The notes below the pieces were generated by a model. It searched no databases. It was not told the origin of the DNA and was given only the letters and a program-made list of their open reading frames with translations. A stretch of DNA of 64,000 nucleotides from Mastigias papua (Eukaryota > Cnidaria > Scyphozoa > Rhizostomeae > Mastigiidae), in NCBI GenBank assembly GCA_964019165.1, contig OZ025271.1, positions 3,372,501-3,436,500 of the forward strand, written 5' to 3'. This document shows positions 8,180 through 64,000 of this stretch, one piece after another. The position numbers and the translations under genes were made by a program. Positions within the stretch are counted from its first letter, which is position 1. Every line of letters begins with the position of its first letter.

Positions 8180-8760
8180 GCAATTGCGAATTTTTATTAG
8201 AAGCTGTTAGGCTAGGGGGTCAACAGTGAATAAGTGGGCGGGTCTAGGGATATGCTCGCTCTACATAAAAGCGGAGCAAATGAATTCATTGAAGCATAAG
8301 TGAGAGATTTTGATAGGTATTATAACATTTAAAAAGCAATCAAAACTAGGACAGCCTAAACAAAAATAGCCCCGTTTAGTGATGAACGAGGGCGTACTAT
8401 TGTTGGGTGGGACAGGGAAGAAAATCTTTATAACTTACCCTCCAGATTGGCTGGAGTAGCACCTCTCAGACCAAATTATTATCCAAATGGTATAGTGCTC
8501 AGGTGCGAACCTAGGAAAAATCTGCAGTGAAAAATCAAATAGCCAGGAAATACAATTTCGTTGTAAGAACATGATGGCTAAATCCCCAGCCTCTCAGAAG
8601 GAGCGTTTTTTTGCTTATTACTATATACAATAAGCAGCAACTCAAGCTCACCTTCAATTCAAGTTCAGAGCTGGATAAAGACTGTTTTTATGAAATAGTG
8701 AATAGGGTAGGGTGTTTATATTATTGGAGGGTGTTACACCAGTCATTGCGCCTGCTTATT
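8180..8760. other. No gene recognised
   Basis: Non-coding AT-rich sequence between family X copy 1 and the next LINE. No repeat or motif identified. Confidence 0.35.
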
Positions 8761-8769
8761 CGCGCCCAC

Positions 8770-10117
8770 GCTTAATGGGGATGTTATCTATCACATACCA
8801 GCTAAAATATGCGAATTCAGTCAAAAAATCAGTTTATCAAATTTAATGGAAAAATTAGAATCCGTTCAGTACTCTGCTGCCCGCGCTGTAACAGGGACTT
8901 GGAAGGGAACATCACGCGAAAAGCTGTACATTGAACTTGGCTGGGAGTCGCTGAGCTCCCGAAGATGGAGTAGACGCCTAACCTTGTTCTATAAGATTTT
9001 GAATAATCTCACACCCTTGTACACAAAAGAACCGATCCCACAGTCTCATCAGTCAAATTACTCTCTTCGCAACCAGAATGTCGTTGGGCGGATAAGGGTA
9101 AGAACCGAGCAATTTCAATCCGGCTTTTATCCCAACTGCTTACATGAATGGAACAAGCTTGATCCAGAAATTAGGCATGCACCGTCTGTTGCTGTTTTTA
9201 AGAGAAAGCTTTTGTCAATAATTCGCCCCCCTGCAAAATCTGTATTTGGTATTCATGACCCAGTAGGCTTAACATATCTTACCCAAATAAGGGTCGGTCT
9301 CAGTAAATTAAAGTTTCACAAATTCAGTCATAATTTTCGAGATGCCATTGACCCAATGTGCCCAACGAACGATGGCATTGAGGATACGGAGCACTTTTTG
9401 TTGCTCTGCCCTTCATTTGACATTCAACGACGAGACCTTCTCGCTGGAGTTTCGGAATTATTGCGACCATATGTTCGAATAAACAGCCTCCCAAATAATG
9501 CGCTGGTCCAAATTTTATTGTATGGTGGTAAAGACCTTCCTACTGATATTAATAAAAACGTACTAAAATCAACTCTAAATTTCATTCACCAAACAGGTAG
9601 GTTCAACTGAAATGGTTTAAAGTAGCCGCTATACCCCCCCCGCAAAGTCTCCTTTTTCCCCCTTTATTTGTTTTCCAGTTCCTTGAGTCTGTTTCGCAGT
9701 GGATTCCAGACAGTTTATCTACACTATATCGTGATCCATATCGTGATCCATAAACCCAGAAAACTTGGAGGCGCGGTGTCATGGGCAGTGGGAACTCCGG
9801 GGGGAGGCAGGAACAGCAGCAATTATTGCTGTTGTTGGTTGCTCTCTCGGCCGGAGTTTCTATTGTTCAGCATCAGGAGCCTCCGTCGCTGGTCTGGTGC
9901 CGGGTGTGAAACAGACTCCAGGATCTGTCAGTATCGTATAGTGTGTGTATCGCTCTGTGGGTGTGTATTTAGTTCAATTGTATGTCTTAATGTGTTGCCA
10001 TGGGGCAGACATCGTCTTTTGCTCCCCATGGTATAGTTCCTTGTAGTATTGTATAGTAATTAGAGTATAGTAGAATGTAGCATTATATTGTAACTTTTTA
10101 TATTGATATAAGAAAAA
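8770..10117 (+). mobile_element. 5'-truncated LINE with intact RT C-terminal region and 3' UTR
   Basis: The open frame 8,846-9,610 (254 aa) is the post-RT region of a non-LTR retrotransposon. It has the LESVQYSAARAVTG block typical of the RT thumb and a C-terminal cysteine-histidine cluster (MCPTN...EHFLLLCP, residues about 170-190), the zinc-knuckle-like end of many LINE ORF2 proteins. The frame reads open upstream to about 8,775 with related text, where the copy is truncated. Downstream, 9,610-10,117 is non-coding, with a C-rich tract and an A-rich end near 10,111-10,120, consistent with a LINE 3' UTR. The RT core and endonuclease are missing, so it cannot move by itself. Confidence 0.8.
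8846..9610 (+). pseudogene. LINE ORF2 C-terminal fragment, 254 codons open
   Basis: This is the uninterrupted coding part of the truncated LINE. The start methionine is an internal residue of ORF2 rather than a true start, since related sequence continues upstream in frame. The end is a natural stop, just after a TGRFN tail. The open frame suggests a relatively young insertion compared with the other decayed copies in the window. The C-terminal motif CP...H...CP resembles a CCHC-type knuckle. It is not a host gene. Confidence 0.8.
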
Positions 10118-45930: not shown

Positions 45931-46619
45931 ACTAAAAGAATGTTCCCGCTTTTTCGTGTTATAGTGAAATTCTAATCTTCTTTCATTTCGTTCATTCATC
46001 CATCAGTCTTAAATACAAGTCAACACATTAAGGGATACAATTCAACTCAATTCAATTCACATTTAGGGATATCAATTCAACAACTAATTTGCATGATTAG
46101 ATACAATACTAAGAAATCAGAATTTATAACAAAAACAGAAAAAGCATCCCTCACTTCCTCACACACCAGTCCTAGTTCGCTTCAAGCCAACCCTCACCTA
46201 CTCAGCCTGCAAACTACCGTAACCGACGAAACAATCTCGGCAGGTGAAGACCATTCATACCTTACAGTATCCAAACTCAATACATCTTTTAATAGAATTA
46301 AAGTATAGCATAGATCACAAAAGGCTTATTCTAGTACCATTATAAGAATTTAAATGTCTGATTACAGTATCCGAATCAAATCTTAGGAGGCATAACTTAG
46401 TGAACATCGAGCGAATAATATAAACATGCCTTAGGCCTGCGCTTTTGTTGCCACTATAAACCTATCACGCTTCTAGATTCTTGACAGGAGATACAGATAT
46501 AGTAAGAGAGATGCTTCAGACTAACCTTCCTTATTCCACTGTGAAGTCTACCGCGATATTTCACATATCACCTGAGAAATTACAAGCACAACTATCTGCG
46601 CGAGACTCACCGCGACGAA

Positions 46620-47266
46620 GTTTCATTTTCATTTCACTTTTCATTTCATTTTTCATTTCATTTTTCAGTTCATTTTTCATTTCATTTTTCATTTCATTTT
46701 AAACTTATTTATACATGGTAACAATTCAGTGTCGAAACCTGTTTTACAATTGGCCCTGTGAAAGAAAATACCTAATAATGCCTAGTTATATTAATTAAAT
46801 ATAAAATTACAATATAATACAGGCTAAAAGAATAAATAGAAAGACAAAGAAACGGAACAAAGGATGGATTTGTCCATGTTAGAGACCCTTGTAAGTTTTA
46901 AGTCTCGATTTACAACAATGAATGGAGGGTGAAAATTTTGATTCGAAGTCTAGTTGATTCCAAGCTTCTGCACCACGATAAGCGAAGGATTTCTGTCCGT
47001 AGGATGGTCTCATTCGGGGTAATAGCAGGTCAGTCTTTGAGTTACGAAGACCGTGATTATGGCAATCTGACAGTTTAGACAAGCACCCACTAAGGTATTC
47101 AGAGGCTGAATTGTTCAGACATTTAAAGGCCATAGTTGGTGTGTCAGGGTAAATAGGTGTCTTGACTGTAGAACATCCCAATTTTTGGATCAAGGGTGCT
47201 GCAGATGTATCAAAATCATTGTTTATTACTATTCTCGCTGCCCTGTTTTGGATTGCTTGTAATTTA

Positions 47267-47268
<2 letters not shown>
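46620..47268 (-). pseudogene. LINE C-terminal fragment with (AAATG)n tail
   Basis: The minus strand from 47,268 reads DKLQAIQNRAARIVI, a central region and AYRGAEAWNQLDFE, ending KTYKGL at 46,879. The 3' UTR ends in the AAATG/TTTCATT repeat at 46,620-46,700, the same end as the copy at 13.7-14.06 kb. The upstream methionine run is the ATG tail of the neighbouring CR1-like LINE and is not part of this protein. The rest of the element is absent, cut where the CR1-like tail joins. Confidence 0.8.
46623..46700. repeat. TTTCATT-type simple repeat (LINE tail)
   Basis: Repeats of TTTCATTTCATTTT; on the minus strand this is an (AAATG)n tail. Confidence 0.9.

Positions 47269-47306
<38 letters not shown>
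47269..47306. repeat. (CAT)n microsatellite, the LINE tail
   Basis: About 12-13 CAT units; on the minus strand (ATG)n at the end of the CR1/L2-type LINE. Confidence 0.95.
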
Positions 47307-47430
47307 ATTTATTTACAGTTGGCTTTGCTATATATATAGCTAAAAGAAGCTAATTAAGGCCAACTAATACTAAAATTAAAGAAAAACAAAACTAAGAATA
47401 ATCTAATTACCGGTAATTGTTAAATACAAA

Positions 47431-50400
47431 CTAATTTAAAAACCCTATATCCTTTATAAAAACTTTACACAATCTGCAGTTGCAACTTATTTCATCCCAA
47501 TGTTTTATTCTTCTTTTAAATTCTTGCAGAGATTCACCGTTTTTCATACTATTGGGTAGTGAGGACCATAAGGAGCAGCCTCTAAATTGAATATTTTCTA
47601 TGCCATATATTGTTGTTCTTACATTCGGCAGTTGAAAATGATTTGGATTTCGCAAGCTATAATAGCTATTTTTTACTACAAAGATATCCTTCATAAAAGT
47701 TGGATTAAGGTTATTCTTTGTCTTGAATATTTCTATCATAAGCAACTGCAGATTGCGTTGATGAACAGTCAGAGATTTATTATAATTACAATAATTATTC
47801 ATAGAATTATTTCCACTATCATTGAATGCAATTCGCAAAGCTCTCTCGGTGACCTTATTTATCTTGGCATTAGCCTTTCTGTCGTGGAACATCCAAACAA
47901 GTGGACAGTAGTTGAACTGTGATGTAATGAAAGCATCCATTAGTAGTTTTAATTTAATAGGATCTATATAATTAGATAGTCGGGCAAGCGCATGCAATTT
48001 TTGGTGTGCCTTTTTGCATAAATCTTGGACATGTTTTGTGAAGCTTAGCTTTTTGTCAAAAGTGACGCCCAGAAGATTTTCATATTCACTTTCTTTGATG
48101 GTGGATTTACCAATGGCAACAACTGAATCTTTATTTTTGTTGCCAAATATCATAAAGTGGCATTTCTCTTTGTTCAGCTTCATGTAATTCTCTGAGAACC
48201 ATTTCGCAAGTATTGAACTGTCCGTTTCAAATCTATTAATTATAGTATCGAGGTTTGAGTTGCATGCGTAGATAGTGGTGTCATCGGCATAATTACAAAC
48301 GCTAGTATTTTGCACAAATAAGAAAATGTCGTTAATAAAGATATTAAACAAAAGTGGCCCTAGAACTGACCCTTGCGGTACCCCTATTGTGATATCTCTA
48401 TATGTACTATATGAACCATTAATTTTAACTCTTTGCTTTCTCTTTGTTAAATAGTTTTTAATGAACTTAAGAGCATCGTGACCAAGACCATAGGCAGCTA
48501 ATTTCGCTATCAAACGATTGTGGTCAATGCAATCAAATGCTTTAGAAAGGTCCATTAGTATTGCTCCAGCTAGTTCCTTATTATCAAGACTTGCTTTGCA
48601 TGTCTGTAGGAATTTTAATAAGACGTGCTCGGTGCTACATCCTTTTCTAAAGCCACCCAAAAGTGGAGATAGAAATGCGCTAATGTAATCGATCAATTGA
48701 TTGTAAATGATACGTTCAAAAACCTTGGAGATGGCTGGAAGTAAGCTTATTGGTCTATAATTTTGCTTTTTCATATTATCATCTTTCTTGTAAAGTGAGG
48801 AGATATCCGTAAGTTTCAGGTCATTTGGAAAAGCGCTTTCTACTACAAGCTTGTTGAAAAACTGTGTCAGCGGTAAGGAAAATAAATCGGCATTTTCTCG
48901 TAGGATTTTGGGTGGAATAGCTTCTTGAGGTGTCGCTTTTTTAGGGTCGAGTTTTATTAACTGATCAAACATTTCTTGGATAGTAATTTGACGAAATGAA
49001 AAAAGTTGGAGACAGCACACAGTAGTTCCAATCTTTGCAACGCTAGAGTGACAGCGAAAGCGTTCAATAGTCGTTTGCAGAGTATCTTCTGAAGAGCCAT
49101 CCATGTTTGTAGGATCCTGTTTTTTAGCTATACCTAATCCTTTAGCAATATCAACAAAATACTCATTAAAAATTTCCGCAACGTTAGTATCATCGGATAC
49201 AACGACATTATCCTCAAGAAGAGTAATGCAAGGAGTTCCGTGAATTTTGTTCGAAAAAAGTGGCTTTACAGTTTTCCAAAATTGTTTATTATCACTGACT
49301 ACTATAGGATCCAGCTTACTATAGTACGATTTCTTGCTTTGACGGAGTAATTTTACACAAAAGTTTCTTTGCTTTTTGAAAGCAATCCAGTTTTCATTTG
49401 TCTTGCATTTGTTTAACTTGTTTTTCAATCTTGACCGCTTCATGATTGCTTTTCTAAGCTCTTTGGTCATAAAGGGGCCATCATTTGCTCGAACATACTT
49501 TTTCTTACATGGAGCGTGTTTATCTAGAACTCTTTTCGTTATTTTGTTGAAATCAGTGAAATCTGTAATATTTTCCATGCTAAATGCAAGTTCTCCCATA
49601 AGTTCTGCTGTGAAAGCTGAGTTTCTGAATTTATTATAATCCCTGTAAGTTACAACTTTTGGGCCTCTTTTGTGAAAACCTCCTTTCAGAGCGGTAGCTA
49701 TCATAACGTGAAAATCCGACAGCCCAGTTTCAATGGTCGCAGTATTTGTGAGCCTGCTTGTATCACTTGTAAGTATCAGATCAATGCATGTTGGGCTGTC
49801 AGATTTAAAGCATGTAGGTTCCTTAACGACATTTTCTAAATTAAAGCTATTCATAAAGTCCTTCAAATTAGAGCTTTTCTCATCTAAGTTAAAATCTCCA
49901 ACTATTAGAAAATTTTTGTAATTAGCTAAATAAAGTTCCATATTTTTACTTAGTTCTTCAAAGAAGAATTTTTCTGATTGTGATGGAGGACGATAGATGC
50001 CAATAAGAAGCCATTTTGTTTTGTGAAGATTTATTTCAACAACCTTAATTTCCATTTCTTTGGAAGTCAGTGTTCTTATTGCAACTTCTCTAGCAGGAAC
50101 ACCATCTCTAATATATATTAGAAGACCTCCCCCATGCTGATTCCTATCTGCTCTTAGGGGTGGCATATAACCATCAATACAAAATTGGCTTGTTGGGAAA
50201 GTGTCATCTACTTTTGTCTCTGCTATAATTAGGATATCTATATTTCCAGAAACCACACATTTCAATGCTTCTATTTTATTTCTAATAGAATTGATATTCA
50301 GGTGTGCGATTAGTAATTTATTCTTAGTAGATAGTCGCATATTTTTTATAATCATATTGGCACTCTCATCCTCCCTCTCATCATCATCAGCATCATCCCT

Positions 50401-50436
50401 AATATCATTTCTATGAGCTTCAATATTACAGCTCAA
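47431..50436 (-). CDS. LINE ORF2: AP endonuclease and reverse transcriptase, 1001 aa
   Basis: Residues about 40-245 are an APE-type endonuclease: LNINSIRNK, AETKVD, IGIYRPP, VGDFNLD and LSDFHVM hold the family's catalytic asparagine, glutamate, aspartate and histidine positions. Residues about 500-760 are the RT: NYRPISLLPAISKVFERII, GFRKGCSTEHVLL, MDLSKAFDCIDH, GVPQGSVLGPLLFNIF and YADDTTIY with both catalytic aspartates. A C-terminal region follows (FNYCPLVWMFH, NAKINKVTERALR, then RGCSLWSSLPNSM) ending with a C.C....C cluster (SCNCRLCKVF). The known mechanism is nicking target DNA and copying its RNA there. No stop or frameshift. The first ATG in frame is used, though coding-like text starts some 30 codons later. 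Confidence 0.93.
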   Translation of the reverse strand: MSCNIEAHRNDIRDDADDDEREDESANMIIKNMRLSTKNKLLIAHLNINSIRNKIEALKCVVSGNIDILIIAETKVDDTFPTSQFCIDGYMPPLRADRNQHGGGLLIYIRDGVPAREVAIRTLTSKEMEIKVVEINLHKTKWLLIGIYRPPSQSEKFFFEELSKNMELYLANYKNFLIVGDFNLDEKSSNLKDFMNSFNLENVVKEPTCFKSDSPTCIDLILTSDTSRLTNTATIETGLSDFHVMIATALKGGFHKRGPKVVTYRDYNKFRNSAFTAELMGELAFSMENITDFTDFNKITKRVLDKHAPCKKKYVRANDGPFMTKELRKAIMKRSRLKNKLNKCKTNENWIAFKKQRNFCVKLLRQSKKSYYSKLDPIVVSDNKQFWKTVKPLFSNKIHGTPCITLLEDNVVVSDDTNVAEIFNEYFVDIAKGLGIAKKQDPTNMDGSSEDTLQTTIERFRCHSSVAKIGTTVCCLQLFSFRQITIQEMFDQLIKLDPKKATPQEAIPPKILRENADLFSLPLTQFFNKLVVESAFPNDLKLTDISSLYKKDDNMKKQNYRPISLLPAISKVFERIIYNQLIDYISAFLSPLLGGFRKGCSTEHVLLKFLQTCKASLDNKELAGAILMDLSKAFDCIDHNRLIAKLAAYGLGHDALKFIKNYLTKRKQRVKINGSYSTYRDITIGVPQGSVLGPLLFNIFINDIFLFVQNTSVCNYADDTTIYACNSNLDTIINRFETDSSILAKWFSENYMKLNKEKCHFMIFGNKNKDSVVAIGKSTIKESEYENLLGVTFDKKLSFTKHVQDLCKKAHQKLHALARLSNYIDPIKLKLLMDAFITSQFNYCPLVWMFHDRKANAKINKVTERALRIAFNDSGNNSMNNYCNYNKSLTVHQRNLQLLMIEIFKTKNNLNPTFMKDIFVVKNSYYSLRNPNHFQLPNVRTTIYGIENIQFRGCSLWSSLPNSMKNGESLQEFKRRIKHWDEISCNCRLCKVFIKDIGFLN

Positions 50437-50508
50437 TTTTACTTTTAAATTTTTATTTCTATGGTACTCACTATCATTGGTTGTATATAAGCAACTGCAG
50501 TCTTCCCG

Positions 50509-51780
50509 TCAATTACATCTAATGACGGACAAATAATTTAAGGCTAGCCTTGCATCGCCAAATCTGTTTAAGTGGAGTCCACTTTGGTTCAGGTGTTTCT
50601 GAGAATCAATATTTCCATTGTCAATAAAGCCAATATGTCTTTTTATACACTCATCCTCTAGTATGTTGTTGATGATATGAATTCGAGTATTCTTTTCTTT
50701 GTCAGCAGTTTTGATCAAACCTGATATAAAAATTTGACTTTCGTCTGATTTAATGGATTCCGCTAATGTGAGAATGTCTTCAGCAACCTTTTCGTTGTCA
50801 TTTTCATTGTTAAGATCGTTCACTCCTGTGTGTAGTATTATTCGGTTAGGTCTTTTTCGAGATGTTGGTACCGAATAGGACGACATATTGTCCGTTGTTG
50901 CTCCTGGGAAACTTTTAACATAAACTTTCTCTGTATTACTCAACGACTTCCTCATTCTCCAGCTTTGCACATTTTTAACCATCGAATCGCCAATAATAAC
51001 TGTTGTTGCTGCCTTTCTGTTTACATGATTTTCCGATTCCTTACGTCTCTCTTTCTTATGAATTTCCGTTGTTTCAGTTGTTTCCAGCTTGTTCATGGAA
51101 TGCGAATATTTTGAACTTTCATTTGATTTTCCTTTCTTCTGATCTCTGGTAAATTTTCTGAGTTGTTTATCGCATTGGTCTTGTTTTTGTGTTCTCTTTT
51201 TGTTCTTTTTGCTATTCTCTCCGTTGTAATTTCGCACTATTTCATTGTCTTGAATGTCCTCTATTACAACAGGGCACATTTCCTGCGTTTGAATTGAGCT
51301 GCTCGAGGATCTCAGCATACCACATACTGATTTATTTGGCGAATAACGCATCTCAGTATTGACATTTTCAACCTTTTGGGATTCTTTCAGTTCCGAGCGT
51401 AATCTGTTGTTTCCCAGTTTCAGTTCATAATTTTCTAAGAGCAATTTTTGATTTTTTCTGGCAGATTCATCATTTTTTAACTGGAGGCCTCTTACATCTT
51501 CGGTCAATTTCCCGACAATGTCTAAAAATGTCAGAAAATCCGTTTTCTCTATAGAGTTGGCTTCTCTTTTGGGCTCAAGCTCAACATGTGGGGTGGTTAA
51601 GTCAATGTCAACAACCTCATTTATGTCACTAGATGTATCAGCTTGGCTCTCAAGATCTACAAGATCTTCATAGTCTTCTATATTTGATATATAATAAGAT
51701 TCGTTACCTTGCATCGTTTTGACCACTCTAATATTGCCCGAATTTACGAGAGAGAACAGGGTCTCCCGAAGTTGTTCCAT
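50509..51780 (-). CDS. LINE ORF1: coiled-coil and SGNH esterase, 423 aa
   Basis: The N-terminus resembles a small winged-helix region (RETLFSLVNSGNIRVV). Residues about 85-140 are a leucine/lysine-rich predicted coiled coil, followed by a lysine-rich basic stretch suited to RNA binding. Residues about 250-420 are an SGNH-hydrolase domain with VIIGDSMVKNV (nucleophile serine), ILHTGVNDL and SGLHLNRFGD (histidine). Esterase ORF1 proteins are typical of CR1/L2 elements; the role of the activity is not settled. Coding-like sequence continues in frame upstream of this ATG (TIYEAIIRIRKINKKRP) to a stop near 51,910 without an ATG, so the original start may lie upstream and be shifted. Confidence 0.88.
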   Translation of the reverse strand: MEQLRETLFSLVNSGNIRVVKTMQGNESYYISNIEDYEDLVDLESQADTSSDINEVVDIDLTTPHVELEPKREANSIEKTDFLTFLDIVGKLTEDVRGLQLKNDESARKNQKLLLENYELKLGNNRLRSELKESQKVENVNTEMRYSPNKSVCGMLRSSSSSIQTQEMCPVVIEDIQDNEIVRNYNGENSKKNKKRTQKQDQCDKQLRKFTRDQKKGKSNESSKYSHSMNKLETTETTEIHKKERRKESENHVNRKAATTVIIGDSMVKNVQSWRMRKSLSNTEKVYVKSFPGATTDNMSSYSVPTSRKRPNRIILHTGVNDLNNENDNEKVAEDILTLAESIKSDESQIFISGLIKTADKEKNTRIHIINNILEDECIKRHIGFIDNGNIDSQKHLNQSGLHLNRFGDARLALNYLSVIRCN

Positions 51781-51984
51781 GGCTAGGCCATTCGTCTTTG
51801 ACGCTTCTGTTAGGATATTCTTTTCATGCGGTCGTTTTTTGTTGATTTTCCTGATGCGTATTATTGCCTCATATATAGTTGTTGCTTTTCCATTCCCATG
51901 ATTATTGCATTACGAAAGATTAGTTGCTATCATACGAGTGAGGTCGTCTAAGCTCATGCACCTACCAGCATGAACAGAATTTGT

Positions 51985-52045
51985 CAGACACTCGTCAGAG
52001 TATGAAACGTCGGATGGCAACCTCCAACCTGAAGAGTATGAAACG
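51985..52045 (-). ncRNA. Degraded hammerhead-like motif upstream of LINE ORF1
   Basis: The minus strand has TATCCGACGTTTCATACT-type sequence (here CATCCGACG...), core CTGACGA at 51,992-51,998 and GTGTCTGAC, as in the PLE copies, but GAAA is altered to AAAT and no stem I partner is found downstream. A second partial GACGTTTCATACTC lies at about 52,030-52,050. It is in the same orientation as the LINE and directly abuts its 5' region. Confidence 0.5.
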
Positions 52046-52078
52046 TCCAACCTGGTGGTCCCACAGAAACCCCATGCG

Positions 52079-52176
52079 GCGCAACCATAGAAATAATAGG
52101 ACTAGAAGGAGGACTTGGTCACGTGACGCGGGCCATCCATGTAAAATCATAATGGCTGCTAACGACTGGTAGAAAG
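52079..52176 (+). repeat. About 100-bp dispersed repeat, copy 1
   Basis: Shares GCAACCATAGAAATAATAGG, GACTAGAA.GAGGACT and ATGGCTGCTAACGACTGG with the inverted copy at 54,449-54,557. It is non-coding. It could be a MITE or the 5' end of a longer element. Confidence 0.6.
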
Positions 52177-52189
52177 CCACAACCAGGAA

Positions 52190-54440
52190 CTAAGCTCATA
52201 GTGATGTCGCAATCCCAAAGTCGCCAATTACACCTCATATTTCCTTGGTAATCAAATATATATATGGTAATGTGATGTTCTTCATTCGTCTGAAAGAGTA
52301 ACTGGCTATTAAGGACGGATCTCTCGTTAAAAGAGAAGAATTCCACTTCAACCGGTAGGGTACAGTCTGTTTATGCCACAAACCCACGTTCCCTGCTAAA
52401 GGGTTGTCGAGTGAACTTTGTTTATTCTAGTTTCAGTGTATACTTCAGCTGCTGAATGGTACATTGTTTTTGTGTGAATGTCTCTGTCAAAATGATTATA
52501 AAGCGTTTTGGCTCCTACCTACCGGAGACAGGATTTCATGGCCATTTGGTAAATGATTTGCCAACATCCTATATATACTTTAGTATAAACATTGTACATT
52601 TGACAAATCATTTCGAAATAAACTATCAAGTGGGAGAATCATGACATAAATGTTAGAGTTGTAGCGTAGACTTTAGTGCTAGTTCAGCTGAAACTTCAGG
52701 AGTTCAAAGATAGGATAGCACAGGGTGCATTTACTTTGCAAAAAGCCTCACTTTGATTATTCAAATATCAGTGTAAGTCTGGAACAAAACACAATCAACC
52801 AATTACCCCTAACAATACTCTTAAAATGGATAAGAATGCACAAATATCAATAACATATTTGAATGATTTAGGAATGAAAATAGAGTTCCTTCCTACAAGC
52901 AGTCTAAGGCTGTTGCTGTATTAACTTTGATCTATTCACAATCAATATTGTGTTTGAGTAAAAGTATACTATGCTGTTTAACCATATCATACTTTCTGAA
53001 ATGCTGCTTTTCTACTAGTTGAAGATCAGTTAGCAAAGTAGTCTCCCTAAATTAATGCAGATTTGATTTGAGTAATAATTCATATGCAACCAGGAAATTC
53101 CTTTTGAAACAAAAAAAGCAGTCTCCCTCTACTGCTAAGTGCACTGATTAATAAATTGACTAAAGTTGGTCATTGACTCAATAATACTGCAAGCCTACTT
53201 AGATATCAGTAATTCCATATCTGGTTAAGCTGTGAATATTTTTTAGATTCCATAAGCTGTTGTTAGTGAGCTCAAGGGCAACATGGCAGACCTGGCATCA
53301 CAAACTTCTAGGCAAATCAAAGGCACCTAAAACACTTTCCAGGCTAAAGAAATGGGAACTTAAGAGCCTTATGACATTATGTATGTAGAATTTGTGAATG
53401 TATTGATAGAAAGCATAAACTAGAACTAAACAACTAGGCTGTAACCCTACCTGACACAGTATTTGAAACAGACCTGTAGACAATGGGAAGGGCAATCACC
53501 CCAATAATTCACTTGGTTGTTATATATACACTGTCATTTCAAATCATTGCATATTTTACTTCTACATCTATGCCCCCCATCCATATTCAGCTCAGGTAGC
53601 TCTGGTACTGATATGAAAAGATCAAAAGTATACTTTAACTTTAAGTTTCTACCTTACAGGATCATCATATAACAAGTGTAATGAGATTCTTAATTACTGG
53701 ATGGTGGCGCAGTACCTCATCCTGTATCAGAAGGGACAATCCTATCTCTAGTGAAAAACTCAAAATTTACCATTACTTTGTAATAAAGGAAACAAATCTA
53801 TATTATAATAGAGAAATGATTATAAATAAATATATGATATGAGAACATTAATATACAGAAAACATACTATAGGGTAAATAAGCTGTAACGTGCCAAACCA
53901 GTTAAGCAGTTGTATCAGGAACTCATATCAAATATGCTTTCAGTTGCTTTTTCTCGATTTCTGCATCATAACAAATACTTTGCGTATAGTCATAAATATA
54001 GTTGTTGACATTGCATAGCTGGGAACTGTAAATCTTGAAGTATCTCGGTATATATTATTTCAATATTTGCAGATGTATTGAGGTTTTGGTTTCTCATAGG
54101 TTTTTCTATTCGATCGGGCATTTTGTTACAGAACGTTTTCAAATGCACTTAGTTCGCAAATGGCACTATCCTGACCGTGCGCATGAGTGAAATATCCTTT
54201 TTCACTATTTGTTGGCGTTAGAACACTCTCTAACCAGTTTGCAGTGCTGTTATCCCGTCATTTTAATAGACTTTCCCTTGTCCTAAAATAACTTGCCACT
54301 GTAAATAACGCTCGATATGTCCGAAAATGTATCTTCCTCTAGTGTCGTTTCGAATAAAATCGAGTATGTCAGATATATAAGCCAAGGCATGTGCAGTAAT
54401 TTTACGAAAATAGCTTTTCTACAGTTAGCGACCAGTCACA
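52190..54440. other. No gene recognised
   Basis: Over 2 kb of AT-rich sequence with no conserved motif, tandem array or splice-supported exon. The open frames at 52,456-52,644 and 53,298-53,495 are isolated and have no known domain. Confidence 0.4.
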
Positions 54441-54448
54441 ACAACAAT

Positions 54449-54557
54449 CTTTCTACCAGTCGTTAGCAGCCATATTGCCTCCCCATGCATGCCCCACTGG
54501 ATTGGCCGGAGAACAATAGAGTCCTCGTTCTAGTCCTAGTATTTCTATGGGCGCAAC
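54449..54557 (-). repeat. About 100-bp dispersed repeat, copy 2
   Basis: Inverted relative to the copy at 52.1 kb. It replaces the C-terminal sequence of the LINE at 54.56 kb just after its NYCC block, so it either inserted there or marks the break of that LINE. Confidence 0.6.
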
Positions 54558-56840
54558 AGTAGTTAAGATAAGGCTCCATTATACCCTTATACAAATTATT
54601 AAGTGTGCTAGTTGGAACATATCGCTTAGCATATTTCAACAAGCTAAGAGCCCGCGAAATCTTAGTTTGGATGTTCTTGATTTGGCTATCCCATTTTAAA
54701 TTATCATCAATCATTATGCCAAGATATTTAGTTTCGTTCACAAACCCAATATCATCATTTCCTAAATTGAAACTTGGATTAAGAGACGATGTTTTCTTTA
54801 TATGACTTAGATTTTGTTTTGAGCCAATTATCATTCCTTGAGTTTAATGACGTTTAATGAGAGTTTATTCCCGCGAAGCCATTCATTGGGACTTGCAAGT
54901 TCCGCATTGACAATAGCATTCAGTTCCTCCATATCATCAGAGGCGTAACATATGGTAGCATCATCAGCGTACATTGTAGCATGGGTCTTTTCAGTGCAAA
55001 GGGCAGATTATTGATATACAGTATAAAGAGGAGAGGCCTAAGGCATGAACCCTGTGGTACTCCTATTTCTATGGCCTGAATTTCGGAGGAGACACCATTA
55101 ACATTGCAGAACTGCTTACGATTATTTAAATATGAACGGAACCAATCATGTTCAATGCCTTTGATGCCATAGTGAAGCATTTTCGCTAACAGCATATCAT
55201 GATCAACAGTGTCGAACGCCTTTTTTAGATCAATGAATATTGCAGCGTTGAGTAGATTCAAGCAAACATGCTATGACCGAGTACAAAGCTCGGAAACCCG
55301 ACTGATGCATGTACAGATGTTTATTTCTATCAAGTTGATGATCATATACCTATTATCATATATCATATTACCTATTATCATATATCATATTACCTATTAT
55401 CATATATCATATTACCTATTATCATATATCATATTACCTATTATCATATATCATATTACCTATTATCATATATCATATTACCTATTATCATATATCATAT
55501 TACCTATCAGTATAGCTGATCATATACCTATTATCATATATCATATTTCTATCAGTATAGCTGATCATATACCTATTATCATATATCATATTACCTATTA
55601 TCATATATCATATTTCTATCAGTATAGCTGATCATATACCAATTTTTCGAACAACCTGGATACAACAGGAAGAACGGAGATGGGTCTGTAGTTAGACCGA
55701 TCGTCACGCTCTCCACTCTTGAAAGTAGGCGCAACACGTGCAGTTTTCCAACTATCAAGAAATTTGCCGGCATTAATAGAAGAGTTGAAGATACTGCAAA
55801 GAGATTGTGAAAGAATGGGAAAAGCAACATTGATAAAATGACTGGCTATACCGTCAGATCCAAATCCAAATGATTTCTTGATTCTACCAAGGGCCCTTCA
55901 GCATTTGCACCATCAATCACTCGAAGTTGGTAGTGTTCTCATTAATTGTATACTCATTAGACAGAAGTAGGTTAGGTTGCGGCGGTATCACATCTTGAAG
56001 CTATTTACCGATATTACAAAAGTAATCATTCATAGCTCGGGAGACTTGAGCTGGTTCATTGATCACATGGTCATCTACTTTTACGCTGTCGATGTTTGTA
56101 GTTTTGGACCTCTTATTCTGCAGTTGATTAATAGTTTTCCAAGAGTCCTTTAAGTTGCCTCTATAAGAAGCGATTTTATTTGAGAAATAGTCTCTCTTCA
56201 GTTGTTTGTTGAGATTGTTAACCTTATTACGCAAATGCCTGTAAGAACTCATAAGAATAGATGACTCATTTTTTACTGCTGCAATCTTTAGTTTATCCCT
56301 CAAGCGAGCTAACTTTTTTAACTTAGTGGTCAACCAAGGGGTGAATTTATCCAAAACGCTCATAGTTCGCAGGGGAGCATATTTCTCAATGATTAACGAA
56401 AGTATATGTGTCCATTCCTCTACGGCTGAATTCACATTATTACTAGAGGTAACAATTTGATGTCAATCGATTTGACGTAGATTCGAGCGAAATTTTTCGC
56501 TATTGAAATTTTTCATTTTTCTAGAGGTGATGGTGTCTTTTGATAGAACTCATGAATTTCCCTATACAGTACACTGCATAATGGTCACTAAGTGCAACCC
56601 TTAAAACACCCGATTCAAGGATATTCTCAGGGCTACTCACTGCAATATGATCAATCAGGCTAGCAGTGTTCAAAGTCACTGTAGTGGGTTCCTCAATTGG
56701 TTGTTGCAGGCCGAAAGTATCGAAAACGGCTGTCATGTGTATGGCAGCATGGTATGCACTGCTGTTAATGTCAGACACGAGGATTCCTCTACCAACATCA
56801 GCAGTATCCCAATTACTTTTCAGATACTATCAAATATTCG
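54557..56840 (-). pseudogene. Decayed LINE (endonuclease end to RT thumb) with internal minisatellite
   Basis: From 56,780 down: end of the endonuclease (LQQPIEEPTTVTLNTASLID, LSDHYAVY), a linker at 56,001-56,435 (DKFTPWLTTKLKKLARLRDK), RT start near 55,700 (SNYRPISVLPVVSRLFEKL, frame shifted), minisatellite 55,341-55,640, the palm at 54,920-55,261 (DLKKAFDTVDHDML, IEIGVPQGSCLRPLLF) and thumb at 54,560-54,834 (TKYLGIMIDDNLKWDSQI). The catalytic box is destroyed by a shift after INNLPFAL. Same family as 25.7-29.4 kb. Its upstream end abuts the DNA transposon at 56.85 kb. Confidence 0.85.
55341..55640. repeat. 22-bp minisatellite inside a LINE RT
   Basis: Seven to eight nearly perfect 22-base units (CCTATTATCATATATCATATTA), then three higher-order units that include TCAGTATAGCTGATCATATA. 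The TAGCTGATCATATACC word is the LINE's own sequence coding for the YDQLY-type end of the RT start block, so the array seems to have grown from the LINE. Confidence 0.9.
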
Positions 56841-56851
56841 GGTATAGAGCA

Positions 56852-56993
56852 GAAATACATTGATTTTCTGTTACTTTGGAGTATTTTACATTAAAAATCT
56901 CATCATATAGAAAGCTTGCATATATCGAGATCTCGATCGTATACAGTTGAAATACATTGATTTTCTATTAGTTTGGACAAATTTACATTAAAA
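56852..56993. repeat. 45-bp direct repeats around the left TIR
   Basis: GAAATACATTGATTTTCT...TACATTAAAA occurs at 56,852-56,896 and 56,949-56,993 (40 of 45 identical). The left TIR lies between them, which makes the true left end of the transposon ambiguous. Confidence 0.75.
56894..56943 (+). repeat. Left terminal inverted repeat
   Basis: Begins AAAATCTCATCATATAGAAA; pairs with 63,115-63,164 with five mismatches in 50. Confidence 0.85.
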
Positions 56994-57191
56994 TACACTG
57001 AAATCACTTTGTAGGATATTTCCTATATACGTTATATACGTTTAAATGAAATCTTTGCATGCCAAGCAGGCGAGTGCCTTTCTTGTACAGCATTGACCTA
57101 GCAGATTTAATGACATGTGAGGTCTCTGTGAGTTGTCTTCAATATCAATACCTCTTCTCAATAGCCAGCTCGTTAGTTCTGTTTCGTAGAT

Positions 57192-57578
57192 TTAAGGCAG
57201 CATTTCGTATTCTCCATCAAAATAATGTGCATTGCAATTCATGACAAACTTGATCTGTTGTTTGATTCCTGACATATTGCGACTGGTAATATTTCTTATA
57301 TCTTGTTGAAAAAACACAAGTAGGTCTGGCCGTTTTCCAGCACAAATCTCAAACAATTCTTCCATTCCAGTTGACATAAATGTTCTTGCTTCTTTTATCA
57401 TGCCATGAATTTTCTCACTGGGCATGAATGTTTCGGCATCCTCCGTAATTGTCTGGCACACAAGACTGTTTGCAAAGTTTAGATGAAGCGCTATGGGTAA
57501 ATTTTCGTTCGATTCTAGATTATCTAAGTATATCCATGCTACTTCAGAAATTTCGGCTACTTGTTCATCTTTTCCCAT
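57192..57578 (-). pseudogene. C-terminal tail of the protease-bearing transposon protein
   Basis: Open for 128 codons, out of frame with the Ulp1 part just upstream. Contains AEISEVAWIYLDNLE and LLVFFQQDIRNITSRNMSG. I do not recognise a domain. It ends 250 bases before the left TIR, so it is probably the natural C-terminus of the element's protein. Confidence 0.45.
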
Positions 57579-57583
57579 AAAGC

Positions 57584-58030
57584 CTATACCAGAAATCTGT
57601 TGGTCTTAAAGCATTCCCAAACGTTTAGGCAACGTTTCTCGAGTTCATTATGCACTTCATGACGCTGATGCAATACATTTACACGTACTGGAATATAGGA
57701 AGGGCACATAACAATAAATTTTAGTAGCATACATACGTAAATTCCGCAGCTAGTTGCATCTTCTTGCTTTGGAAAGTGTTCATCATCGGCCATGAGTTTG
57801 TATACCTTAACTGCACTTGTATTGTTGTATTTCAAGGCAGCATACATATTGATGTATCGTGTAAACTAATCGTGTTCAGTTCTGTCAATCTTGCCACACA
57901 GTTGATCTATGTATGTAAAAAATGATGTTTCAAAGTCATACACCATCCCAACCCAATGCATACCTGCTTGACACCACGCAGTAATGGCATAATCATAAAG
58001 ATCTGGGTCAGCAGAGTCGTCGCGTCTAAT
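57584..58030 (-). pseudogene. Ulp1/SENP-like cysteine protease domain
   Basis: The minus strand reads AWCQAGMHWVGMVYDFET, with the HW pair of the catalytic histidine, then TYIDQL with the catalytic aspartate (family text YxDSL), a stop, and FPKQEDATSCGIYVCMLLKF with the glutamine and cysteine positions (family: Q....DCG). So histidine, aspartate, glutamine and cysteine are all present in the right order and spacing, in two frames. Ulp1 enzymes remove SUMO or related tags. Within transposons their role is unproved. Interrupted by a stop near 57,870. Confidence 0.7.
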
Positions 58031-58300
58031 GGCCATTTTTTTGAAGCTGTTCTTCGTGAGCTCTGGCGATTTCTTTGTATGGAGGACATGTGTCTGAATT
58101 ATAAGAACTCTCTTTTTCTATCTGATTTGCAGCATTGGCGATTAATAGCATATATCCATCCATCTTCCACTGTGCAAAATATCATTCAGTGAGTTCTTTT
58201 TTATATTGGCCCATTGCTGCTGAAAGGAAGATTGAACGTGTATATCTTCTTTTGCATTGACTTGAATTGATCTGCTGTACGCTTTTCTTGCTACACAATA

Positions 58301-58780
58301 CTAGTGATGCAATGTCTTCCTGTTATACCAGGGTTTCTTTTCGATGTAGTATGCACTGGGATGACTGTTCACTTTATGCAGTATTGCTATATAGTCTTGA
58401 AGCAGAAACTGAACGTCATCACTTTTCATGTATTCTGACAATTCTGTCGTTTTTACACTAGTTGTACATTCATATTGAGCAATTAACTCCTCGTGATGGC
58501 CCAATGAAACGAGCATCTGTTTTTGAAATAGAATAGAGATAGAGAATTTGATATGCTTTTGTCAAATGCCCTTCACCTAAACATATGCTTCCATGCTCCT
58601 GTTGCAGTTCATGTGAGGAAATACCATCTGTTGTGCAATGGAGTTAATGCGTGCGAAACTATGATGTTTGTACTGCATCTGCTTTGGCAATCTGGTATAT
58701 GGCAGACTCTGTAACTTTTTCCTAGCCATTTCAGAGCTGCTTGTATATCTTCTTGAAGTAGCGATTAGACTGTTATATTC
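58301..58780 (-). pseudogene. Linker between USP- and Ulp1-like domains
   Basis: Two open pieces (58,577-58,777 and 58,301-58,516) with no recognised domain; text includes MARKKLQSLPYTRLPKQMQY and YMKSDDVQFLLQDYIAIL. Helical character. Separated by stops. Confidence 0.4.
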
Positions 58781-60031
58781 TATATTACTTTTAGATACGA
58801 TGATGAACTGTTGCAACGGTGGTATTTCATATGTTCGATTGCTATAATATCACTCTGCACTGGATATGACAAGGCACTTTTCATGTACTCTGCGAAACAG
58901 TAGTGAAACATAGCCTTGTGTGGTTTCGGAAGCAAACGTTGAGAGAGCTCTCGAGCAAGAACCCAAAGAACTGCGTGATGTTCTGTTGGTGTCAGGTCGC
59001 TCTTCCACTTCCTATCTTCCAGTTCAATACGTTTAAAGATGCCGTTCAATCTGCTACTGGGGATTTTATAGGAAATTACGGACAGCAAGGCAAAATTGTG
59101 TTGTTCCATGTCTGCAACGATATCAAATCTTTCATACAGCAAGATATAGGCGTCAGTTTCCAATCTAACTTCCTCTGGCGTTGTTCTTTCATGTATCGAT
59201 GATCCATTTAAGGTGAACATAATTTCCTTGATATAAATAATTGTCGAGTAGTGTCCGACATGTGGAGAGGAACCATGGTGGGCTATCACAGCACGCAAAA
59301 TATACACTGAGCACTCCCTTTCACATTGGTTCTTCTCAAAGCAGCTGTTGATTACAGTAGAGTCAGCGCTGACTTTATTTGAATGTTCGTAAAGATCAAC
59401 CACATTGGTGAAGAATATAAGAGACAAATCTTTTTGCTCTTTCCCATCCGAAGCAGAACACCGTTTTATCATTGTCACAAGAACTTTAGGAAATGTCTGT
59501 ATTACTTTTCCATGCCCTGTTAAATGTCATATGAATCAATTCACATATAATTGCATTTATTACAATTGGTAGAAAAAGTACATTGTCAACAGCATTTACC
59601 TTAATCATTTCTTGCTTTCCGCATTTAAAGCATGTAGATATTTCTGAAAATTGTGCACCAAATTGCGTATCGTCAATTGCAGAAATTTCTTCAATCATTT
59701 TGCACAGCAAAAAAGAGGTATCATTTTGACGTCCGAAGTGCAACTCCAAACCAAAATCTCGCGATAAATGACGTAGGCAGCTATCACCTATGCCTTCATT
59801 GATAAACCTCTTTTGAAACGGTCTGCTTTGAATTTCAATACGCTCTAGCACTGGAAATGATGCAGTTTCTTTCCCCATGGTCTGCTGCAGCTCCAGCAAC
59901 TCAGTGACATTGCAGCAACAACTTACTGCTTTGACTACCGCATTCAACCAGCAATTGTCCCTTTTATTGGGAATGCTCCTCGTCAATTGTCTAAGTGTCT
60001 GATTTGCACTCTGAGGTAGGCTCTTTAACAT
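58780..60031 (-). pseudogene. USP-type (peptidase C19-like) deubiquitinase domain in a transposon
   Basis: The first part (59,486-60,031) has the cysteine box NKRDNCWLNAVVKAV, matching the N..N.CY.N.....L pattern of USPs, and a CFKCG half of a zinc ribbon. The second part (58,780-59,478), after a shift near 59,480, has the histidine box HHGSSPHVGHYSTIIYI and, 30 residues later, DAYILLYERF, matching the USP end (H.G....GHY, then AY.L.Y.R). Cysteine and histidine of the catalytic pair are thus both kept. The family hydrolyses ubiquitin from proteins. About 90 codons after the domain are unassigned. Domain size, about 300 residues, is normal for a compact USP. Confidence 0.72.
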
Positions 60032-60582
60032 TTAAATATGACAGACAGCAGCGGTCGTTCTTGTAACCTTGCATCCATGTTTCTCACTATGTTCGATGTG
60101 GTCATGCTCGGTCTTGAAAGGCATTATGTAACCCATGCCCTCCTTTGTAGCACTCTCAGGGCCAATAGATGAATGGTCATCTTCCAATTTTGTTCTTCTA
60201 ATTTTGGCAGGACTTGTTTGCTCTCTTGCTGCTGTCTTCACAACTTTCATTACGATTAACGCCTTATTTTTGGGTGACTGTTGGAAGTATCCTTTGTTGG
60301 TTGTCATATAATCATATAATCATTAGTTTACGTTGGTTTACAGAGACCAGTATTAGTAAATACTAATTCAGACAGTGAAAATGTCAGTGAAAATCCTTTT
60401 CGATTCTTGTCCCATTTCTCTTCTATTAGTGCAACATTTGAAATCCGTTTCTTCTTTCTTTCTCTAAATTGGCCGCCATATATCCTTTGGATTCCAACAA
60501 GATCTTCCTGTACCTCACGTGCAAAGTCATCAAGTGGCATTTTTATTTTTCCTCCTAGCTGCTGGTTGAAGAGAACTCCCAT
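60032..60582 (-). pseudogene. Basic linker or N-terminal part of the protease protein
   Basis: Two open pieces: 60,328-60,582 (QLGGKIKMPLDDFAREVQED, RERKKKRISNVALIEEKW) and 60,032-60,307 (lysine-rich, PAKIRRTKLEDDHSSIG, then HDHIEHSEKHGCKV). The lysine/arginine clusters could be nuclear localisation signals. No named domain. Confidence 0.4.
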
Positions 60583-60689
60583 TCTGCGCTCACAAACACC
60601 AATAGTTCTTTTGTCTTTTAGGAAACCTTTGAAGTTGTCAGCTGTAATGTTTATAAGTAATAATTATGATTGATATCTTAATCCCTGTA

Positions 60690-61365
60690 TATATGTAATC
60701 CTTGTAGCCCTGTTATTTTAGTTATGATTAGAGACAAGCAAGAGATATACACGCGTTTATTCACCTCGTCTAGTAGTGTTTAGCAGAACAATAAATCAGC
60801 AAGCTTGTTCCCCTGAAGATGCGTTTTTCATTATATTCCATGTATGCTTCGCTTTCACCGTGCCTTGTTAGATTGTCAAGCAGTATGCCAGACCATAAAG
60901 ACATAGTTCCCATTAGTCGTTAAGTGATGTCTGTGACAAACTGGGGTTTTTAGTAGATGTTCTCTATTGTCCTCCTCTCCATAGATTCTACCTGATGATG
61001 AAAAGCACGCAACTTAATAATTGAAACAAAATCTTTGCAAACTGAAAATAGTAAACACTATGGGCTTCGGGCAAGGATGAGGATCACTGTCTTTTAGGGG
61101 TAACTTCCTCTAAAGTAAACCAGATGCTAGTGTCTTAAATGAGTCAACACTCTGGCTTTCAAAGAGAGATGACGAGAAATTACGCTAGAACTGAATGCAG
61201 CTTCAGAATATGCCTTGACTTTTCTATACATATTAAATAACATTCTAGGTCTGTAGACAGTTGATTTGAACAACCTTGCTTTAGTTATGCATGTAAATAG
61301 CAACTTTAAACATAGATCAAATAAAGTACCTTCTTTTGTTCTAATGTGCTCAACTTCTGGAAGTG
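60690..61365. other. Non-coding gap inside the transposon
   Basis: No coding run on the minus strand connects the transposase relic to the protease relic. It may be an intron, an intergenic region between two transposon genes, or decay. Confidence 0.4.
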
Positions 61366-61368
61366 TTT

Positions 61369-62920
61369 TCAGAAGGGGGGTGTCATCGTGGCTTCTAACA
61401 CATCTTTTTCAGTACCTCCTCGGACTTTCAAATCCACCTGCATTTCTTCAAGCTTACTGTTATCCACATTAATGGCATTTTCTTTCATGCTAAAATCGAT
61501 TGTTTCCATATACATGTTCAGAGATTTCACATCTGCAGCTAGCCGATCACATGAACTTCTTGTATGACTTATACGAATAAGTATTGAAAATAGATCTTCT
61601 ATAGCTTCTAAGTTATCAGCGTTCATCAATAGACTGCGCAACCACATTGCAAATCGAATGCACTCTTTGGATTTTAAATGCTGTTTAGCCAAAGCCCCCA
61701 CATCTCTTAAGAAGTGAAACGCACAATCATGTACATTCATTTTCAACAAATCTGAATGAATTGAATCCGCTTCACCAGCCACTATCCTCCAAGCACGTTC
61801 AATGACATCCGGATGTGATTCACGGTTAATTACGTGTAGTCCAGCCAAAATGAAGACCATTGATCTATCATTGTTAATTTCAACCGGCATATAAAGATTC
61901 CTTGCGCCAAATACCTTTTTTCATAATGCCTGAATAGTTCTAGCCAATTCTCCACATCAGGTACAGTGTGGCTATCACTCAGCATTATTGAAAGAGGAAC
62001 ACTGACACTCCCATTTACCCATTAACTGATGGGGTGTTCCAAATCATCACAATTGTTGGAATAACACTAAATTTAATCTTTGTCTTATTGTCGCTGTTCT
62101 TGTTCTCAAGGGCTTTTTCCTCCGCAAATTTAATCAAACGTGCTACTTCATCTGTGTGAATTCTCTTCTTTATTCTCCCCTTCTTACGCAATTTGGCGAA
62201 AAAGTTGAAAGCTTTTGCCAACATTTGATCTATTGCCAGCTGCACTTGCTTCCTCTGTCAGGTTTGCCATCCACTTCACTCTTTCTTTGTAGGCTTTATG
62301 CCTATCACCAAGTCTTTCTTGCATTTCTACTCGATCTTTCCCAACTATCGGTCTTGTGTGTAGCTCATCTATCTTATGGTGTACTTTGTTTCCTTTGAAA
62401 AAAATAGTTCCTCTTAAATTGCCGTATAGAACTATCCTTACATCCTTTACAAGACATGAAGAATACTTGCATTATCCATAAGCTCTGAGCAATATTCCAT
62501 CGACCTGCTCTGGTTGTGTACACTTTGCACTGACATAATGCCTTATGAACATTATTTTACAGTTAGGATTGTGCTCCTCTATAATTCTCGTGAAGAAATT
62601 GCACCATTCTCTAGTCTGGAATACATGAGCATTTACTCGAGATTCCATCACAAGTTTCTGTCAATCATCCTTAGTCACTTCAAAATAGCACAATTCGGAT
62701 ACCTCTACCTCGAAAAAGGTTTCTGGAAGACGGTAATGACTTCAAGCTTCTAATTTGTCATGTGATATTACCTCATTTGTCCAGAAATTCTCTGTCCAGA
62801 AATTCTCTGTTACTGCATTTTCTTCACTAATGATAGTGCATTCACTCCATATCTGCTGCATATTATTGTGAATGTTCTGTACGCAATCCTTTGCTTTTAC
62901 TGGGGTTCATTTCATCTCCA
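61369..62920 (-). pseudogene. Mutator-like transposase, decayed
   Basis: Reading from 62,920 down through shifts: an N-terminal region with EWCNFFTRIIEEHNPNCKI, HYVSAKC and, after a stop, CKYSSCLVKDVRIVLYG (cysteine pairs of a possible zinc-binding domain), then DELHTRPIVGKDRVEMQERL, then PLSIMLSDSHTVPDVENWLE and MPVEINNDRSMVFILAGLHV. The last two match the MULE core layout, with a PxxxMLxxxHT strand and then an E...D.S box that supplies a catalytic aspartate. After it come DCAFHFLRDVGALAKQHL and an alpha-helical tail to 61,369. At least three shifts and two stops. The first aspartate is not confidently placed. Known function of the family is cut-and-paste transposition. Confidence 0.6.
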
Positions 62921-63114
62921 TTGCTTTCTAACTTCATCGATGTGCCCATCGCTCTTTCAAGATTTTTTTATCTCATCATATTCATTGGCAAATGAATTGT
63001 ATTTCCCCTATGGATGTATTTGAAACAAAATGTTTCCTCAGAGCAGTTTGCTAGGGCAAAATGGAATATCAGCTTTCTGGCTAGGCTTTGATTTGAAAAT
63101 ATATCAATAAAATA

Positions 63115-63164
63115 TATACGATAGAGAATTCGATATATGCGAGTTTTCTATATGATGAGATTTT
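63115..63164 (-). repeat. Right terminal inverted repeat
   Basis: Inverse of 56,894-56,943 (45 of 50 positions). The outer end is at 63,164, in a GATGAGATTTT context. Confidence 0.85.
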
Positions 63165-63169
63165 AGTAC

Positions 63170-64000
63170 AGAACCCTTCTGTCAAATGCTGTACTCATCA
63201 GAGGCGTGGGCTGGGTAGAAGAATTTTGATACAAAGTGATGCCAATTGTTTGCAATTTAAGAGTGTACAAACGAACAGAAAGGCAATGTAGTTCTACTCT
63301 ATTCCCTGAAGTTTTTCTATTGTCTGAAAGGTATGGGGATGCTGCTTATAGAGGAATCCTCATGTTTCTTCTTCATTTCGTCGTGGTGCGCCCTGCAGGT
63401 TTCGATCGCAGATCGTTGTGCGGGTAATTTCTTAGTTGTAATGTGAAATATAGCCACAGACTACTGACGTGAAATAAGGAAGATCAATCTTGATTATCTG
63501 TCTGACAAAGTCTGTAGCTCCTGTCAGGAATCTACAAGCGTGCTGGATTTACAGCGCTAACAAACGTACGGGCCGAAGTCATGCTGGTAGTATTCGTTCG
63601 ATGTTCACTACGTTATGCCTCCTAGGATTTGCTTCGGATACGCTATCCGAACATGGGAGTGCTAGTAATGGTACTAGGATAAGCCTTTTGCAGTTTATGG
63701 CGTAGTTTACTTCTAGTAAGAGAGGAGTCCTGTTTAAATATAGTAAAGTATGAATGCTCTTAACCTGTCGATACTGTTTCGACGGTGGTGACAGTTTGCA
63801 GGCTGAAAAAGTGAGGGCTGGCTTGACGCAACCTCTTTCCTATCAATGCTATACAAATCAGGATGACTGAGCAGTGAAAGTCAATAGAGAGTATCTAGAT
63901 ATGTTATTCACTAACTCAGTGCGGATACTCACGGGTGGAGTGGTTTCCAACAATCTTCACAAAGATATGACAGTTCTAGGGGGTGGTCGCTAAAGGTTTT
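63170..64000. other. No gene recognised
   Basis: Open frames at 63,236-63,427 and 63,490-63,705 have no known domain and no splice support. No repeat identified. The right flank does not visibly resume the LINE found left of the transposon. Confidence 0.4.

Follow-up and report, generated by a model that had tools for sequence, protein, structure and literature searches.

A dead DNA transposon of Mastigias papua with a transposase relic, a USP-like domain and an Ulp1-like domain

Among described systems, the element reported here comes closest to Ginger1, a group of cut-and-paste transposons of animals whose transposases bear an Ulp1 or OTU protease domain at the C-terminus (Bao et al. 2010, PMC2836005). 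The part of that paper available to us records Ulp1 in Ginger1 and Mutator (hydra, lancelet) and OTU in Ginger1 and Helitrons, and it also mentions a Trichomonas protein, XP_001314237.1, in which Transposase_11 is combined with peptidase C19. In plants, the Kaonashi/KIU elements are described, in the accessible text of two papers, as Mutator-like elements (MULEs) bearing Ulp1 (PMC13317346, PMC6117577). In the present study, a stretch of 64,000 nucleotides from Mastigias papua (contig OZ025271.1, positions 3,372,501 to 3,436,500; hereafter the window) has been analysed, which contains a degenerate DNA transposon with relics of a transposase, a USP (peptidase C19) domain and an Ulp1 (peptidase C48) domain on its minus strand. 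That these three parts belong together in one DNA transposon is very probable. The fuller reading, in which the window holds a dead DNA transposon with long terminal repeats, and in which the ancestor encoded a DDE-like transposase with C19 and C48 domains, likely as one protein in which the proteases may have acted in cis, is considered by us as probable.

In comparison to Ginger1, the likeness lies in a transposase carrying a C-terminal protease domain. The Ginger1 families, as far as given in the part of the paper seen, have OTU or Ulp1 each (one together with PHD, and one for which the domain is not given), whereas C19 and C48 are found together here (PMC2836005). Moreover, the Ginger1 transposase is Gypsy-integrase-like, whereas the transposase of this element has no profile-assigned class (PMC2836005); no integrase profile was found among the Pfam matches of the element's queries, the GPY/F motif itself not having been searched for. 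The Trichomonas protein also has C19 joined to a transposase, but of another class, and Ulp1 is not mentioned in the portion of its description consulted. Kaonashi/KIU share the presence of Ulp1 in a transposon and differ in that the descriptions, in the parts seen, do not mention USP (PMC13317346, PMC6117577). In the same genome, one open frame of 1415 residues at C5:2063724 (L053:958-5205) combines MULE, Ulp1 and a PHD-like finger (Pfam MULE, expectation value E 3.2e-13). It resembles the present element in being a transposon with an Ulp1 domain, and it has transposase and Ulp1 in one open reading frame (ORF), but the Pfam scan gave no USP, and its transposase matches Pfam MULE, unlike that of the present element. 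Frames of equal length and score to it are present at C1:19087840 and C1:19243973.

The preliminary description of this locus had stated that Ulp1 domains are known in DNA transposons, and the literature agrees, as far as its accessible text goes (PMC2836005, PMC13317346). It had named no family with a deubiquitinase-type domain in addition; C19 with a transposase is mentioned in the text seen (PMC2836005). C19 and C48 in one transposon were not found in the literature searched (without most subscription papers and without Repbase), and the protease terms searched for in PMC12062965 and PMC12730594 were not present. What appears new here is the occurrence of C19 and C48 together with a transposase, Ulp1 in transposons being already known.

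The association has been found at a second locus. The genome assembly (G000, 346.8 Mb in 172 contigs, the window being C6:3372501-3436500) was searched with protein relatives of each part; the search scores the best candidates only, and more distant copies may be missed. The Ulp1 relative P0003 and the USP relative P0002 gave two places each, and these were the same two loci, the window and contig C13. In the C13 copy (3041882-3045926) the transposase, its C-terminus, USP and Ulp1 follow in this order on one strand, with 84-93% DNA identity by piece to window positions 62691-57956. Because the second copy has the same arrangement, the three parts seem to be combined as a genuine trait of a transposon family and not by accident. 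Thus, the core claim of the preliminary description, one DNA transposon with transposase, USP-like and Ulp1-like parts, survives. It had also named proteases lying outside the repeats, or always apart from the transposase, as the observation that would make the association accidental, and at both loci found they lie beside the transposase.

The C13 copy is itself damaged. Its transposase start and left terminal repeat lie about 58.6 kb upstream (2977837-2983267), and since window position 62688 corresponds to C13 2983267 and window 62691 to C13 3041882, with a 4-bp overlap at the break, a large insertion (58.6 kb, 2983267-3041882) seems to have split this copy. At its other side, the copy breaks off inside Ulp1 at retroelement-like sequence. 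For the C13 copy one terminal repeat only has been found, so the earlier statement that the proteases lie between the repeats stands for the window copy only.

The second copy also bears on two ways in which the parts could have come together without being one element. A protease-bearing element could have been inserted in, or could abut, a transposase element, the repeats belonging to only one of them; the window does show nesting, with inserted sequence at 46601-56771 and, within the transposase part, additional stretches of 157 and 177 bp. However, order and strand are kept in C13, and the DNA similarity runs through the junctions apart from insertions and deletions, which largely refutes such a composite and leaves it extremely unlikely. 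Alternatively, the two loci could be one insertion copied by segmental duplication, the association having been formed once by accident, and it is true that only two protease-bearing loci were found. But the flanks compared between window and C13 have one dispersed repeat only in common, both loci and a short copy on contig C23 share their terminal sequences but are set in different surroundings, and relatives of the parts are present in other records. This explanation is therefore very unlikely, though slightly less so than the composite.

The reading frames of the two copies point to a single ancestral protein. In C13, the C-terminus of the transposase, USP and the N-terminal part of Ulp1 lie in one continuous frame with eight stops (local positions 6820-9490); it shifts near local position 9478, Ulp1 continuing in another frame. 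All eight stop positions are sense codons in the window copy, and the in-frame stop just before USP in the window (60032) is sense in C13. As none of the eight stops is common to both copies, a single open frame in the ancestor is the simplest assumption, and the ancestor probably encoded one fusion protein. The two copies differ by several frameshifting insertions and deletions, and the window has extra stretches of 80, 157 and 177 bp, which may be inserts or introns.

Both protease assignments of the preliminary description were upheld by Pfam searches. In case of USP, the uninterrupted ORF 58780-59526 alone matches PF00443 (UCH) with E 1.3e-10 (41.8 bits), and both halves joined reach 56.7 bits (cut-off 23.9), covering profile positions 5-254 of 254. 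The boxes NKRDNCWLNA (Cys), GHYST (His) and TLNGSS (Asn) are kept in the window, at what we take to be the catalytic positions of this family. Around the His box 17 of 20 positions are identical to P0002, compared with 116 of 191 overall. The nearest solved structure by sequence is USP2 (E 0.0023), the alignment taking in the His and Asn boxes. By profile and boxes, the USP part of the window is a C19 domain. A 62-bp deletion in the window removes its putative second zinc-ligand pair. An intron was considered for the gap in the USP part and ruled out, as comparison with P0004 and the C13 copy reveals sequence lost there together with a change of frame.

The Ulp1 part is more divergent from its profile. 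The single ORF gives E 0.0034 against PF02902 (17.7 bits, below the cut-off of 20.7), the joined window pieces are narrowly above it with 22.1 bits, and the relative P0003 reaches 29.3 bits. SENP1 is the nearest solved structure by sequence (E 0.00074), and the catalytic residues align with those of SENP1. The His, Asp, Gln and Cys, presumably the catalytic set of Ulp1, are kept in the window and all four are identical in P0003; 10-14 of 15 neighbouring positions around them are identical to P0003, compared with 138 of 241 overall. The region 57192-57605 downstream gave no Pfam match at E<=1.

The transposase relic on the minus strand, as first described, is confirmed by the 404-residue protein P0001, which matches it at E 6.8e-100. 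Its N-terminal and catalytic region contains stops and frameshifts, and the C-terminal part is interrupted by about 157 bp not found in C13. By eye, the motifs WDATG and SDRS of P0001 are candidates for the first two catalytic Asp residues; the stretch with the putative first one has been lost from the window relic at about 62018-62024. CAFH and ...GVCERRMG... (with the putative catalytic Glu) are present in the window relic, again assigned by eye. The structure model of P0001 was too poor (predicted local distance difference test, pLDDT, 33.3); neither it nor a second model (pLDDT 31.6) was used for fold comparison.

Mutator and MULE transposons typically, though not universally, have long terminal inverted repeats; they make target site duplications of 8-11 bp, and their transposases have a DDE triad with CxxH between the second D and the E. 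The present element could be an ordinary MULE with Ulp1, to which a USP has been added. Its terminal repeats of about 0.7 kb are long in this sense, the order D...D...CxxH can be traced by eye, and a 10-bp direct repeat (9/10 identical) stands at the ends of the C23 copy, matched equally well by 18 of 1000 random pairs. However, the label 'MULE-type' given to the relic at first is not supported, since Pfam MULE (PF10551) gave no match for the relic, P0001 or the joined query in searches at E<=5 or E<=10, which are limited by the HMMER filters discarding most matches above E of about 0.1, whereas E 3.2e-13 is reached by the MULE+Ulp1+PHD protein on C5. Profile comparison with that protein gave no match either, a weak test with two sequences on this element's side, and for the window copy no target duplication was found (407 of 1000 random pairs were as good). 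Hence, membership in MULE is doubtful to us, and it has a better standing than any other alternative considered. No Pfam family reached a meaningful score with the transposase queries (window relic, P0001 and joined query).

The P0001 genome search listed 18 matches. Divergent transposase relatives, 37-48% identical, are present at C13:502716 (to 503432), 543774 and 584832; their spacing of 41,058 bp and identical scores suggest a large tandem duplication. Two matches on contig C10 are 21% identical, and a weak relationship (E 1e-7 over 67 residues) was seen for an ORF on C10 that has a DATG motif.

The element is larger than was first assumed. The inverted repeat of 45/50 bases noted earlier is real: 56894-56943 pairs inverted with 63164-63115 over 50 bp (68.9 bits), compared with a top score of 50.0 bits in 100 dinucleotide shuffles of the region. 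The element boundaries placed at 56894 and 63164 are wrong, as the 50 bp paired there form only the inner portion of terminal repeats that measure about 0.7 kb; those ends were discarded when the outer repeats reaching 46178 and 63833 were found, and so was another candidate pair of ends, at about 56790/63350, which had an 11-bp palindromic duplication. When the genome was searched with the outer part of the right arm, the matches stopped at query position 450-454 in C23, the left arm of the window and C18, and at 437 in C13; the element thus extends from about 46178 to about 63833 of the window. Within the window, the right arm segment 63407-63829 matches 46600-46179 inverted, and the left arm continues from 56772; the two parts of the left repeat are thus separated by about 10 kb in the window, and about 40 bp lie between them in C13 and between their counterparts in the right arm. 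The inner left repeat carries an internal duplication of 55 bp (56842-56896 / 56939-56993). The insert between the two parts, which we class as largely CR1/L2-like from its motifs, contains a 1025-residue endonuclease-reverse transcriptase ORF (47431-50508) and a 466-residue ORF (50509-51909), both open, and remnants of these enzymes up to 56772. The coordinates are collected in Table 1.

Table 1. Parts of the element in the window and of its second copy on contig C13 (C13 rows in contig coordinates)
Feature	Position	Strand	Basis
Left terminal inverted repeat, outer part	46178..46600	+	75% inverted match with 63407-63829; C23 and C13 ends match too
Inserted sequence, largely retroelement	46601..56771	.	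splits left repeat; ORFs and tblastn
Left terminal repeat, inner part	56772..57029	+	89% match to C13 2978209-2978335, beginning at 56772
Left arm as first noticed	56894..56943	+	90% inverted match with 63115-63164
C-terminal extension downstream of Ulp1	57050..57605	-	ORFs; domain not recognised
Ulp1 domain with N-terminal extension	57584..58561	-	PF02902 E 1.5e-4; P0003 tblastn E 8e-89, 56% over 248 residues
USP domain with extension	58577..60031	-	PF00443 E 3.6e-15; P0004 and C13 comparison
Transposase C-terminal part	60328..60998	-	66% protein identity to C13 copy for 60663-60032
Transposase N-terminal and catalytic parts, broken	61127..62807	-	tblastn of P0001, 45-76% identity by piece
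Right terminal inverted repeat	63110..63833	-	79%, 609 bp, to left end of C23 short copy
C13 transposase	3041882-3043047	+	
C13 transposase C-terminus and linker	3043255-3043773	+	66%
C13 USP	3043786-3045003	+	64%, E 9e-160
C13 Ulp1	3045415-3045926	+	70-74%

Both ends are present in the short C23 copy (1961875-1965590), the left one corresponding to window 63230-63833, and none of nine query proteins matched this copy at E<=1e-3. Further fragments of the family are present at C18:3054277-3054362 (a terminal-repeat end) and C22:7722354-7722514 (94% match to window 57045-57205). A satellite-like array of related units occupies 64262-67100 in extended window coordinates, about 0.4 kb past the right end of the element. 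Among the Pfam C48 matches of the genome, three (on C5, C22 and C18) are the MULE+Ulp1+PHD protein and two YqaJ+Ulp1 proteins, with no UCH match; the C22 frame has 438 residues (L054:1649-2965), and the C18 frame of 906 residues (L055:2117-4837, minus strand) adjoins a DDE_Tnp_4 transposase (356-1906, plus strand).

Protein searches returned four relatives in total, P0001 from the transposase query and P0002, P0003 and P0004 from a short USP+Ulp1 query, while a 389-residue USP query returned none. P0004 agrees with the C13 copy at 99.5% identity; its source is therefore probably the same species or a sister species, and it does not count as independent. P0001, P0002 and P0003 share about 54-73% identity with the window copy over the aligned stretches. 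Scans of genome contigs and viral contigs, a phage search with P0002, and Rfam and tRNA scans gave no lead. Between the two copies, the ratio of nonsynonymous to synonymous substitution rates (dN/dS) is 0.39 for Ulp1 (95% bootstrap interval 0.23-0.69, 186 codons), the only part for which neutrality is excluded.

A number of observations weigh against the reading of a three-part transposon protein that worked as such. The dN/dS interval includes 1 for the USP core (0.73, 0.52-1.05, 407 codons), for USP with linker and extension (0.90, 0.67-1.21, 583 codons) and for the transposase (0.82, 0.57-1.2, 397 codons, without 61920-61369, a piece of 43 codons with 0.21, most of the corresponding sequence being deleted in C13). 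The values of single pieces lie between 0.19 and 3.28, and two of the pieces counted overlap in different frames. This pattern fits copies that may have drifted after their death, and selection is not demonstrated by it. P0001, P0002 and P0003 are each on their own contig, so they are relatives of each part and the linkage outside this genome is not thereby shown. At the third catalytic position of USP the window has Asn, where P0002 and C13 have Asp, and the C13 copy lacks 8 residues beside the Cys box of USP. Reading the C13 locus as far as 3072000 did not reveal the right terminal repeat of this copy, and an intact copy was not found in this genome; both copies are dead. Finally, neither locus was among the 21 matches listed in the Pfam C48 genome search, from which it follows that this Ulp1 is remote from the curated family and that more distant copies of the unit could escape detection.

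The drift-like ratios also bear on the possibility that the proteases were passengers, i.e. host gene fragments taken up by transduplication with no role in transposition. Capture of Ulp1 by plant MULEs is described in the accessible part of PMC13317346, and the USP ratio between the copies is compatible with neutrality. Moreover, in the 9-kb stretches around the three near-identical tandem transposase units on C13, nine query proteins matched the transposase only, with no USP or Ulp1 found. On the other hand, both domains share a reading frame with the C-terminus of the transposase in C13, P0003 keeps the Ulp1 catalytic residues at 56-73% identity, and the dN/dS of Ulp1 is below 1. Passenger capture is thus regarded as unlikely, and an ancestral transposase with two protease domains of its own is preferred.

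For such an ancestor a role can be proposed tentatively from the domain content, along the lines of the preliminary description, which had suggested that ubiquitin or SUMO could be stripped from the transposase or from host silencing factors. The transposase would cut and paste the element via its long repeats, and the two isopeptidase-type domains would work in cis, either on their own protein or in its immediate surroundings. They may take off ubiquitin and SUMO, or related modifiers, from the transposase or from silencing or repair proteins at the donor or target site of transposition; candidate targets are SUMO-dependent silencing complexes on transposon DNA, or the transposase itself. As an outcome, the transposase might escape degradation, or the element might escape silencing. 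That the putative proteases strip both modifiers in cis during transposition is, in our opinion, somewhat less than an even chance. The same caution applies to the picture of the transposase as a three-enzyme polyprotein (DDE-like nuclease, deubiquitinase-type and deSUMOylase-type) which would remove both modifiers at any site to which this protein binds. With the same architecture, one protease might instead release domains from the polyprotein. In the parts of the literature seen, the function of Ulp1 in plant elements is called unknown (PMC13317346), and a role of protease domains in transposition is offered as a possibility (PMC2836005).

Ulp1 and OTU domains recur across unrelated transposons. 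The presence of C19 and C48 with one transposase points to a relevance of both modifier pathways for a single cycle of transposition, and this element family lets the role of the proteases be examined domain by domain.

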